A DNA stretch of 5,348 bases, taken from NCBI GenBank assembly GCA_030037185.1, contig JASHRR010000858.1:1-5348 (forward strand). The letters are read 5' to 3'. The stretch is from Xanthobacteraceae bacterium. GTDB lineage: Bacteria > Pseudomonadota > Alphaproteobacteria > Rhizobiales > Xanthobacteraceae. The notes beneath the pieces are model-generated. The model did no database searches and was not told the origin of the DNA. It worked only from the letters and a program-made list of their open reading frames with translations. Of this stretch, positions 745 through 5,348 are shown in pieces (the first letter of the stretch is position 1; the number at the start of each line of letters is the position of its first letter). The translations under genes were made by a program, and so were the position numbers.

Positions 745-1250
745 CGCGCGCCGCCGCCCGTAGCCGTAGCCGACCTCCTCGCTGTAGCAGGCGACAACGT
801 TTCCAGTTGATGTCATTTAACGACTCCGACCTTGAAAGATGCTCTCGCTCGCACGGCTACCCGGCCGACATGCACACCTGCGGGCGCCGTTAGGCACCTC
901 TGCCCGCACCATTCGCCGGTCTGAATGGACGACTTTGATGCGGGTGAGATACCGGGGAAATGAGATTGGTGCGGCAATAATCGCCGCGCCCCTTGCCTTA
1001 ATTTCTGGCGTTGGTATCCGCCACCCCACGAGCGTCCCCACTGCGCCGACGCACGCAGCCTCGCGCGAATGCGTCTTTTTGGATGCCAAGTCTCAAACGA
1101 TTGACTTTGGTGCGACCGCCGCAAGACGCCTCCAAACCAGTAGCCACCAAAGCCTCGTACAAGGCCCAGCGTGTGGCGTCGACGGCGGCAGCGTCCTTTA
1201 GCGGCGCCTTAAGTTGCGCCTTGATGGCAGCAAGGCGTTTGTGATCGGGG
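745..1250 (-). pseudogene. iscB: IscB C-terminal remnant (RuvC-III and TAM-interacting region), frameshifted
   Basis: Three or four reading frames together spell the C-terminus of an IscB RNA-guided nuclease. Frame A, down to about 1080, gives KRLAAIKAQLKAPLKDAAAV, DATRWALYEALVATGLE, then GGRTKVNRLRLGI. Frame B, from about 1077, gives KTHSREAACVGAVGTLVGWR, IPTPEIKA, then TRIKVVHS and MVRAEVPNGA. Frame C, from about 885, gives AGVHVGRVAVRARASFKVG. A further frame, from about 810, gives INWKRCRLLQR. From memory of the family these match PLKDAAAVNATRW, GGRTKxNRxRLGxPKTHxLDAACVG, VGRVAVRA and HCRLLQRADGYGY, in order. The A-to-B shift lies at a run of five T (plus 1076-1080). The RuvC-III aspartate of LDAACVG is Glu here (REAACVG). 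The bridge helix, RuvC-I, RuvC-II and the HNH domain are absent because the omega RNA abuts directly. The gene is certainly non-functional; the IscB identity rests on several independent motif matches. Confidence 0.85.
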
Positions 1251-1410
1251 CTTGTCTGCTGTCTTGCCGTTTCGAGCCAGGAGCTGAGGAAGCACCCAGC
1301 GTGCGTCTTGAACCTGTCTGCAAGGTAGCTTGGGGCCGTAGTCCCAAGACCGGTAACCTCGGCTTCCCTGCCCCTTGGGGGGCCCGAAAGCCCCCTCCTC
1401 AACGGCTTTA
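1250..1410 (-). ncRNA. HEARO / omega RNA scaffold of the IscB element
   Basis: IscB nucleases are guided by a structured RNA encoded just upstream of the gene, with the guide at its 5' end. Read on the minus strand, this stretch holds a series of stable hairpins. GGGGGC / GCCCCC (1395-1390 with 1382-1377) closes a UUUCGG loop. CTTGGG / CCCAAG (1348-1343 with 1334-1329) has an 8-nt loop, flanked by AGGT / ACCT. GCTGGG / CTCAGC has one G-U pair. The block GACGCACGCTGGG (1307-1295), followed by TTCCTCAG and then ACAAGCC, closely matches the corresponding conserved block of published IscB omega RNAs as I remember them. The scaffold looks structurally intact although the protein is gone. The 3' end is approximate; iscB-like codons begin around 1250. 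Covariance searching with the Rfam HEARO model would settle identity and ends. Confidence 0.78.
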
Positions 1411-1421
1411 GCTGTTAGGAG
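1395..1421 (-). repeat. Left-end terminal hairpin of the IscB element
   Basis: On the minus strand CTCCTAAC (1421-1414) pairs with GTT-G-AGGAG (1403-1395): 8 bp with one bulged G. Inside it AGCTAAAGCC contains the small GCT/AGC repeat. It sits at the 5' edge of the omega RNA, where an IS200/IS605 left-end palindrome is expected. Its 3' arm overlaps the first strong RNA hairpin by one base, so in RNA the two stems would compete slightly. Confidence 0.6.
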
Positions 1422-2676: not shown

Positions 2677-4500
2677 TCACACCCGCAAGCGCTCCACCGG
2701 GTCCGCCGGCGCCACGTCGATCATCCGCAGCTGAATGCGCTCGCTGCCCTGCCAGCGGTCGATAGCGAGCGTCCCGGCCACATGGACGGCGCGCCCCCGA
2801 TTGTTGAGCACGGCCTCTCCGAGCTTTTGCCCGGCAGCGCGGAATGCGATGGCGTTGATGGTCGCGCCATCGCGCGATCGCAGCCGGGCGCGCACATGAG
2901 CTTTCGCAACTTCTTCGGCGTGGGCGATGGTGTGCGCGGCAAGGGCGATCACCGGCTCCGGATTGCCGGCGCCGAACGGCCCTGCGGCGGTGAGCATCGC
3001 CAGCAGTTCCGCGCTGACCGCCCGCGCCGTCACGGCGGCGTCAACCAGCAACACGTCGTCGCGCCGCGCGGCTTCGACATCGGCGCAAAGGCGGCTTTGA
3101 AGAAAAGCCCGAAACTCGCCGAGCGCGCCGGCCTTGAGCGTGACGCCCGCCGCCATGGCATGCCCGCCGCCTTTGATGAGCAGCCCCTCGGCGACCGCGT
3201 GGCGCACGGCACGGCCGAGATCCACGCCCGGGATCGAGCGCCCCGAACCGGCGCCGATCTCGCCGGGTCCCAGTGCCACCGCAAACGCCGGCCGGCCGAA
3301 TCGCTCCTTGAGCCGCGCGGCCACCAGTCCGACCACGCCCGGATGCCAGCGCGGCGACGCCGTGACGACCACGGAGCCCTTCTCTTCGATGCCGAGCGCC
3401 GCCATGGCCTCGGCTTGCGCCTCTGCGACAGCAGCAAGCTCGATCTCCTGTCGCTCGCGATTGAGGCGGTCCAGTTGGGCAGCAAGCGCCGCCGCAGCTG
3501 TCGGATCGGTGCATAGCAGCAGCTCCGCGCCAAGATCGGCTCGACCGATACGGCCGCCCGCGTTGATGCGCGGCCCCAGCAGGAAGCCGAGATGCCATGG
3601 CTCCGGCGGCCCGCTCAGCCGCGACACGTCCATTAACGCCGTCAGGCCGACGCGCCCGCGCCTGCGCATCGCAATCAGTCCCTTCGCCACAAAAGCACGG
3701 TTGAGCCCCCTGAGCGCCACGACGTCGGCGACGGTGCCGAGCGCCACCAGGTCGAGGAGCTCCAGCAAGTCCGGTTCTGGCCGCGCCGCGCCCCAGAAGC
3801 CGCGCCGGCGCAGCTCCCGGTTGGTCGCCACCACCACCAGAAAGACGAGCCCAACCGCGGCGAGGTCTCCGAGGCCCGACAGATCGTCAAGCCGGTTCGG
3901 ATTGACCAGCGCCACCGCCGGCGGCAGAATCTCATCGGCCTGGTGGTGGTCGATCACCACCGTGTCGAGGCCGAGTCGCTGCGCCGCCGCAAGCGGCTCG
4001 ATGCTGGTGGTGCCGCAATCAACCGTCACCAAGAGATTGGCGCCGCGTGCGGCGAGGGAAGCGATCGCCTCGATGTTCGGGCCATAGCCCTCGAAAATGC
4101 GATCCGGAATATGAATCAGGGGTTCTATCCCGGCACTGCGCAGGAAACTTGCAAGCAGCGCAGCAGAGGTTGCGCCATCGACATCATAGTCGCCCAAAAT
4201 CGCAACCTGCTCGCGGCGCATCACAGCCTCGACCAGACGGCTTGCCGCCCGTGTCATATCGACGAGCACATCGGGGTCCGGCATCAGCCGCTTGATGGTG
4301 GGATCGAGATAGGCCTCGACGGCGTCGACTTGCACGTTGCGCCCCGCCAGGATGCGGGCGAGCATTTCCGGCACGCCATGGCGTTGACCGATCGCCAGCG
4401 AGCGCGCATTGCCGCGATCATCAAGGCGGTCGCACCATGGCCGCCCGGTCGCCGAGCGCTCCACCCCAAGGAAATGGCGATTGGACTGTCCTCGCATCAT
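2677..4500 (-). CDS. recJ: RecJ single-stranded-DNA-specific 5'-3' exonuclease
   Basis: RecJ degrades single-stranded DNA 5' to 3' in RecF-pathway recombination, mismatch repair and base-excision repair, in the cytoplasm. Numbered from a TTG at 4575, the motifs are LGDYDVDGATSAAL (127-140), TVDCG (184-188), the signature VIDHHQADE (207-215, Asp209-His210-His211), DLVALGTVADVVAL (275-288) and GPRINAGGRIG (334-344). The DHHA1 part has HPGVVGLVAARLKERFGRP (411-429) and GGGHAMAAG (469-477). The C-terminal 120 or so residues fit the OB-fold domain. All metal-binding Asp/His positions of the DHH superfamily that I can place are present. I chose ATG at 4500 (607 aa): homology-like sequence starts only at RHFLGVERSATGRPW, and the extra 25 codons from TTG at 4575 resemble no RecJ N-terminus. 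ATG at 4497 and GTG at 4503 are alternatives, and no strong ribosome binding site decides between them. The open frames antisense to this gene are G+C-driven shadows. Confidence 0.96.
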   Translation of the reverse strand: MMRGQSNRHFLGVERSATGRPWCDRLDDRGNARSLAIGQRHGVPEMLARILAGRNVQVDAVEAYLDPTIKRLMPDPDVLVDMTRAASRLVEAVMRREQVAILGDYDVDGATSAALLASFLRSAGIEPLIHIPDRIFEGYGPNIEAIASLAARGANLLVTVDCGTTSIEPLAAAQRLGLDTVVIDHHQADEILPPAVALVNPNRLDDLSGLGDLAAVGLVFLVVVATNRELRRRGFWGAARPEPDLLELLDLVALGTVADVVALRGLNRAFVAKGLIAMRRRGRVGLTALMDVSRLSGPPEPWHLGFLLGPRINAGGRIGRADLGAELLLCTDPTAAAALAAQLDRLNRERQEIELAAVAEAQAEAMAALGIEEKGSVVVTASPRWHPGVVGLVAARLKERFGRPAFAVALGPGEIGAGSGRSIPGVDLGRAVRHAVAEGLLIKGGGHAMAAGVTLKAGALGEFRAFLQSRLCADVEAARRDDVLLVDAAVTARAVSAELLAMLTAAGPFGAGNPEPVIALAAHTIAHAEEVAKAHVRARLRSRDGATINAIAFRAAGQKLGEAVLNNRGRAVHVAGTLAIDRWQGSERIQLRMIDVAPADPVERLRV

Positions 4501-4754
4501 CACGTTGCGCACCCGCCGCAATGTGCCGATTCGGCGCGTTTTTAAGAGTTCAGCGCAAATGGAGCCCGCCGGCAACGGAATTGATCAGGGCTGTTGATGT
4601 TTCGGGCGGCCGCAACACTTTCGCGCATGCCGTTATCAGGTCTCACAAAGCCATTGCGTGCGTATCGATCTCATTGGCGGCGAATCGGACATCGCGAAAG
4701 ACGCTGGGCGACAGTGTCTGCAACGCCAATGACCGGCGTGATCAACGCAGAAGA

Positions 4755-5134: not shown

Positions 5135-5149
5135 ATGCCTGATAGGCAT
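5135..5149 (+). promoter_or_regulatory. Palindrome overlapping the tnpB ribosome binding site and start codon
   Basis: ATGCCT (5135-5140) and AGGCAT (5144-5149) are perfect 6-base arms around GAT. The right arm contains the AGG that would serve as Shine-Dalgarno and the first two bases of the tnpB ATG. As RNA it could hide the start; as DNA it could be an operator. TTGAAA at 5110-5115 could be a -35 element, but no good -10 box follows at the right distance. Confidence 0.4.
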
Positions 5150-5348
5150 GAAACGCGTTGCGAACATCCAACTGACGCCGACGGCAGAGCAGGTGAAGTC
5201 GCTTCGCGGTACGCTTGAACGCTGCAACGTCGGCTGCAACATGATTTCGCGGCGAGGTTTCGAAGCTCGCACGACGCGTCAATACGCCTTGATAAAGCTT
5301 GTCTATCATCAGCTGAGAGAGGAGTTCGCGCTTACCGCTCAGGCCGCT
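5148..5348 (+). CDS. tnpB: TnpB RNA-guided nuclease, OrfB_IS605 family (partial; N-terminal 67 aa)
   Basis: TnpB is the transposon-encoded RNA-guided DNA nuclease from which Cas12 proteins derive. It cuts donor sites and so helps keep the element in the genome. ATG at 5148 opens 67 codons that run off the right edge with no stop. The N-terminus matches the family pattern: MKRVANIQLTPTAEQVKSLR (1-20), TLERCNVGCNMISRRGF (22-38, the CNxxCNxIS-type signature), then YALIKLVYHQLREEF (46-60) and LTAQAA (62-67), which precede the usual VRCIAKVADAY in relatives as I remember them. RuvC catalytic residues and the zinc finger lie beyond the window, so activity cannot be judged. Val-Gly replaces the usual Ala-Ala in the CNAACN signature, a mild change. 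No frameshift is visible. The start overlaps a perfect palindrome, suggesting tight control of translation. Confidence 0.87.
   Translation, partial: MKRVANIQLTPTAEQVKSLRGTLERCNVGCNMISRRGFEARTTRQYALIKLVYHQLREEFALTAQAA

Follow-up and report, generated by a model that had tools for sequence, protein, structure and literature searches.

The stretch of DNA analysed here, hereafter the window, comprises 5,348 nucleotides of contig JASHRR010000858.1 from a Xanthobacteraceae bacterium. Its minus strand carries recJ at positions 2677–4575 (NCBIfam), a gene at 1444–2433 of weak substrate-binding similarity in Pfam, with matches below the cut-offs, and a DNA methyltransferase gene at 1–519 that is cut by the window (Pfam and NCBIfam). 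Between the last two genes lies an element of about 1434–699 which displays, in minus-strand order, the 5′ half of a HEARO/omega RNA, the C-terminal part of IscB and a right-end-like hairpin; the span of 745–1421 given in the initial annotation was slightly short. At the other end of the window, positions 5148–5348 of the plus strand probably encode the N-terminal part of a TnpB-like protein that continues beyond the window (seven plasmid matches, three of them named transposase and one TnpB; 43% identity over 67 residues), for which NCBIfam gave no match.

A related locus from a Hyphomicrobiales MAG (L007) was compared with the site. The upstream genes of the two loci share 93% identity over the best protein segment, and L007 aligns to window positions 2434–1446 and 485–1. 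Between these blocks there are 127 bases in L007 versus 960 in the window; both flanking genes are present in L007 and the element is absent, with no IscB found within its 4,734 bases. Because the gap sequences of L007 and the window align poorly, the insertion can be placed only approximately. Where the window has the IscB remnant, L007 has at 1196–1289 an intergenic stretch with GGATTACGCCACGCTGATCCACCCTACG, which resembles a common REP-type palindrome.

The IscB remnant and the deletion junction

Frameshift-aware alignment of 1246–745 (minus strand) revealed an IscB pseudogene that covers residues ~262–445 in the numbering of the Polaromonas protein (L003), from the RuvC-III region onward, and carries four frameshifts together with a number of in-frame losses; no stop interrupts it. 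The remnant is identical to the IscB of Allochromatium (L005) at 94 of 157 aligned residues, to that of L003 at 94 of 166 and to that of L001 at 88 of 158. A tblastn search with the longest frame found IscB in 30 plasmid records (best E 3e-12 among the matches listed). Complete IscB proteins encoded at five plasmid loci aligned from residue ~250–265 on, in up to three frames, and that of L001 did so in three pieces over window positions 1237–828 on the minus strand (E 3.5e-21); the earlier parts of these five proteins gave chance-level matches only, with a best E of 0.11. These searches bear out the IscB similarity that the initial annotation had proposed for two segments, as well as its view that most of the nuclease, including RuvC-I/II and HNH, has been deleted; the roughly 170 C-terminal residues it had placed in several frames come to ~180.

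The NCBIfam profile guided_IscB (NF040563) matched with an E of 6.4e-11 over profile positions 246–305 of 314, scoring 41.9 bits, below its cut-off of 175. The window holds no open reading frame with the PLMP, RuvC-I, bridge-helix, RuvC-II, HNH and RuvC-III parts of an IscB nuclease, a Pfam search of the remnant frames returned nothing relevant, and one remnant frame searched against solved structures found no match. Another locus, L002, was considered as a second remnant and rejected, its IscB being almost full-length and having a single stop close to the C-terminus.

The junction lies at 1246–1259 on the minus strand, the exact base being ambiguous by a few. The sequence GCAGACAAGC (1259–1250) occurs as in the HEARO of L001 (1579–1588) and L002, and is followed by three bases and then by the IscB residues DHKRL, starting at 1246. 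By the spacing of L001, about 0.9 kb is missing, made up of the rest of the RNA and IscB residues 1 to ~261. No supported match to the missing parts of HEARO or IscB was found elsewhere in the window, and the idea that they lie there was dropped.

The omega RNA and the ends of the element

The HEARO/omega RNA 5′ half, including the left-end or guide-adaptor stem, was located at 1269–1434 on the minus strand by two models. A covariance model of the HEARO 5′ half (R1), built from 11 loci with the window left out of training, matched 1434–1269 over model positions 1–144 of 144 with 22.5 bits (E 7.1e-6 under a short calibration), the second-best score within the window being 5.6 bits. R1 was also run on 31 other loci, namely 30 with the upstream gene and L117, which was included since Rfam HEARO had matched it; two of these matched, L117 with 27.5 bits and L031 with 14.5 bits (E 0.067). 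Since HEARO loci outside the training set (L120, L121, L129 and L131) score 23.3 to 72 bits, the window stands at the low end of R1 scores. A profile HMM of six loci (L001–L006) likewise matched 1328–1274 of the minus strand over model positions 83–140 of 241 (E 1.3e-5).

Features of the 5′ half of HEARO and IscB omega RNAs are present in the window, namely the first stem, the hairpin that follows it and the TGCTTCCTCAG hairpin region, the last of these being partly broken in the R1 alignment. In stem 1, GTAACC (1434–1429) pairs with GGTTAC (1358–1353) at six of six positions, with two compensatory changes relative to all six aligned relatives, which have GTCAAC or GTCAAT together with GTTGAC. 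The second hairpin also forms six of six pairs; its columns are not aligned as pairs in the relatives, so that it is neutral evidence. In the left flank, the 16 bases at 1435–1450 would occupy the guide position of a full omega RNA transcript, the guide sitting 5′ of the scaffold in the omega RNA described in PMC9640706, and these bases overlap the stop codon of the upstream gene (1446–1444).

The initial annotation had described the omega RNA as intact and had set a HEARO covariance search beforehand as the test of its reading. This test failed: Rfam HEARO (RF02033) gave no match in the whole window at its gathering score of 83 bits, and at E ≤ 10 it found nothing in 700–1500, nor in 1255–1450, the latter being searched alone to allow for a match truncated by an end. 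The same model matched all of L001–L006, six loci whose IscB is full-length or nearly so, at 88.6–120.7 bits. Since PMC9755519 reports RF02033 matches in 65% of IscB 5′ regions, the miss is not decisive alone.

Neither the profile HMM, over model positions 141–241, nor a covariance model of the HEARO 3′ half (R2) found this half in the window, including the nexus and central stem partners and the pseudoknot strand. R2 returned nothing at the junction, and its best score in the window, elsewhere, was 3.5 bits; it found the copy L155 on the Allochromatium plasmid pAt1, outside its training set, with 79.3 bits, and L117 with 19.5 bits. Because R2 also misses the divergent intact HEAROs L006 and L129, its silence is weak by itself and supporting only. 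Of the scaffold claimed for the minus strand, then, the 5′ half stands directly upstream of the IscB remnant and the 3′ half was not found. In OgeuIscB, according to PMC9640706, a pseudoknot joins the nexus hairpin loop to the bases after the nexus stem, and substituting the pseudoknot loop abolished editing. By position, the partner strand of this pseudoknot falls within the part lost from the window.

At the opposite end, a hairpin at 748–699 (minus strand) is the probable right end of the element, lying directly after the IscB remnant. The window shows CGCGCTTGCCCTCC..CTGGAGTCCCCGCGCTGAGA at the place where the relatives have CGCGCTATCCCTCC..GGGGTYTCYCGCGC. When the region was shuffled 500 times, 13 shuffles reached the score of its hairpin; the profile match, third among the four listed, lacked significance (E 8.6). 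The earlier claim that both ends were kept accordingly holds for the left part, given its covariance match, and becomes a probability for the right end. Eight right ends that we examined consist of a hairpin, a CGCGC-like motif and TGATGA, the last being present in all eight by selection, as they were located through it; the right end of the window is without TGATGA. A DNA search of the plasmids with 520–760 gave no match.

Solitary right-end-like hairpins were also seen, numerous in pAt1 and with several examples in other plasmids; in pAt1 and two other plasmids, hairpins of this sort with no adjoining HEARO or IscB recur, some of them in opposite orientations. Because the motif also occurs alone, it does not prove that an element ends there. 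At five right ends (L003, L123, L155 and pAt1 positions 15714 and 153492), the next gene has its annotated start at the ATGA of TGATGA; at L004, L005 and L148 it does not. HEARO was reportedly first described as inserting before ATGA or GTGA.

HEARO loci without a full-length IscB

Sixteen records carrying IscB or a part of it were searched for HEARO, which was found in 15 of them with 32 matches, and 30 of these matches were examined. A full or nearly full-length IscB follows at 23 of the 30 loci (in some cases truncated where the stretch ends) and not at the other seven, two or three of which lack it through insertions. Four loci (L151, L155, L156 and L157) scored below the Rfam gathering score, at 44.9–71.4 bits.

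Two loci retain IscB with a large internal loss. At L148 (pAt1 152017; gene 1782–2123), 113 residues remain, with residues 1–43 joined to 381–449 in one frame, and at L137 (Polaromonas JS666 plasmid 2), annotated as iscB, residues 1–203 are joined to 353–478, also in one frame. Both resemble the window in this loss, but their HEARO is complete and their parts share one frame. At L134 only 46 N-terminal IscB residues follow the HEARO, and ltrA is annotated before the rest of iscB. The HEARO of L155 is followed by another gene, and at L157 the HEARO 5′ part is joined to a right end.

L151 and L156, both on plasmid p1 of Cupriavidus necator C39, were rejected as IscB-less HEAROs. The former is interrupted by an insertion encoding a reverse transcriptase, and the latter has a comparable insertion at almost the same position. 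Both insertions lie near TGCTTC within the HEARO, and are possibly group II introns targeting a HEARO hairpin.

Plasmid pAt1 of Allochromatium tepidum (NZ_AP024564.1) holds HEARO elements or pieces without full IscB at 15479–15703, 94138–94537, 19563–19810, 152017–152255, 153502–153737 and 174748–174853 (stretches L183, L185, L132 and L184), beside one full-length element. A DNA search with L157 found the first of these as a shorter relative of the same build, together with partial relatives at 153502–153737 (left end missing) and 174748–174853 (left part only). At 15479–15703 and 94138–94537, as in the window, the HEARO 5′ part is joined to the right end. Unlike the window, these two derivatives retain no IscB coding and occur as several related copies on one plasmid, and their HEARO is less decayed, that of 15479–15703 scoring 70.9 bits with R1. 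The pAt1 group as a whole includes complete and core-deleted HEAROs. Since their breakpoints differ, separate deletions are as likely as the spread of one short form. Among the papers listed in our literature search, none named IscB-less HEARO elements, a result that does not show them to be unpublished.

HEARO was searched under stricter filters in 385 genomes of the class to which L007 belongs, and one weak match was obtained, in genome G544 (L117, 1254–1453 on the minus strand; 33.1 bits with Rfam HEARO); 14 named controls also gave no match under these filters. No IscB was found in the 1.2 kb downstream of the L117 HEARO.

Origin and status of the element

IscB (ISC) elements with HEARO (RF02033) have the order left end, omega RNA, IscB and right end, which the window shares, its own right end being probable; it differs from them by the missing 3′ half of the RNA, the missing residues 1 to ~261, the frameshifts and the lack of an Rfam match. 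With its two homologies in this order, its middle missing and its site empty in L007, the element is probably a dead, core-deleted IscB transposon of the ISC, IS200/IS605-like type. In a bacterium probably of the Hyphomicrobiales, an IscB element would have inserted between the weakly substrate-binding-like gene and the DNA methyltransferase gene; a deletion of ~0.9 kb would then have fused the omega RNA, at its middle, with IscB at residue ~262, and the RNA 3′ half would have been lost together with the PLMP, RuvC-I, bridge-helix, RuvC-II and HNH parts; and the leftover coding part would have drifted, gaining several frameshifts. We infer that the join was made by deletion rather than by recombination between two elements, that the deletion took place in situ and that the remaining RNA half is non-functional. 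An inert relic is the best reading because the partner strand of the required pseudoknot falls in the lost part. As a counterpoint, the full pairing of stem 1 and the lack of a stop in the remnant suggest that decay is not extreme, or that the changes in the stem predate the deletion.

Further copies were sought outside the window's own genome. By DNA, the plasmids gave a single match, which lies inside a near full-length IscB, and none of 24 genomes matched; among 391 genomes of the family to which L007 belongs, for which two candidates per genome among the matches listed were scored, short matches were found in three, none encoding IscB. The IscB C-terminus was found at E ≤ 1e-6 in none of 397 genomes of the order to which L007 belongs, and the same query recovered six of six positive records, an easier test as these are small plasmids or virus contigs. 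Two phage records had IscB-like matches by protein. A count with full-length IscB as query in 296 genomes of the family was discarded as useless: 282 had matches, and those listed were almost all to the generic HNH motif (query residues 206–255). The two longest family matches (L087 and L088) were likewise rejected, as they covered only the HNH region and its neighbourhood and did not extend beyond residue 275.

These searches bear directly on a non-autonomous, PATE- or MITE-like element, in which the short form itself would have moved through a Y1 transposase acting in trans on the kept ends. The left stem is kept and the right end probably so, and the left part may be intact enough for trans-mobilisation. 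PMC3119063 describes PATEs in Haloquadratum as core-deleted IS605 derivatives that have spread, with near-terminal palindromic ends joined after loss of the core, as is probable for the window element; pAt1, too, holds several IscB-less HEARO derivatives at different sites. PATEs, however, are numerous in their genomes, versus one known copy of the window element, which unlike them retains more than a third of the nuclease gene as well as half of an omega RNA. No second copy was found in the plasmids, the 24 genomes or the 391 family genomes, all outside the window's own genome; the right end is weakly supported and without the TGATGA of the eight right ends located by it; no transposase was recognised within the window; and the differing breakpoints of the pAt1 derivatives also fit separate deletions. 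We consider movement of the short form unlikely. By kind, the element belongs with the IS605-type elements that have lost their core and kept their ends joined (PATEs).

Alternatively, the left end might have been domesticated as a regulatory RNA or hairpin serving the upstream gene, such as its terminator. This would agree with a stem that starts after a gap of nine bases beyond the stop codon of the gene at 1444–2433, on the same strand, and with the fold of 1437–1341 at −40.5 kcal/mol (a value without shuffle control). Such a role is very improbable, as there is no second copy to show conservation and the hairpin is absent from L007. The chances are slighter still for an orphan omega RNA guiding an IscB encoded elsewhere, a use in trans that the initial annotation had entertained. 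A HEARO-like 5′ half does adjoin a possible guide, but the scaffold is not intact: the 3′ partners of the nexus stem, the central stem and the pseudoknot, the last of these needed in OgeuIscB according to PMC9640706, were not found, and the order genomes yielded no IscB C-terminus. Least probable of all is that two pieces of an IscB locus were joined artificially during assembly or sequencing, since frameshifts and in-frame losses spread over the remnant point to real decay.

By itself, the element is a trace of a former IscB invasion in a lineage in which IscB appears to be rare, judging from the 397 order genomes. The wider comparison, with seven of 30 HEARO loci lacking a full-length IscB, matters more. 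It is conceivable, if doubtful, that IscB elements have repeatedly given rise to short, nuclease-less, RNA-bearing elements by losing their core, the breakpoints falling within the omega RNA or directly behind it, and the window would be a late, decayed member of this class; L155, L148 and L117, which keep a complete or nearly complete HEARO, could then use IscB in trans. Plasmid pAt1, on which one full element was found alongside several short HEARO derivatives, offers a tractable setting for examining whether nuclease-less omega RNAs work in trans.
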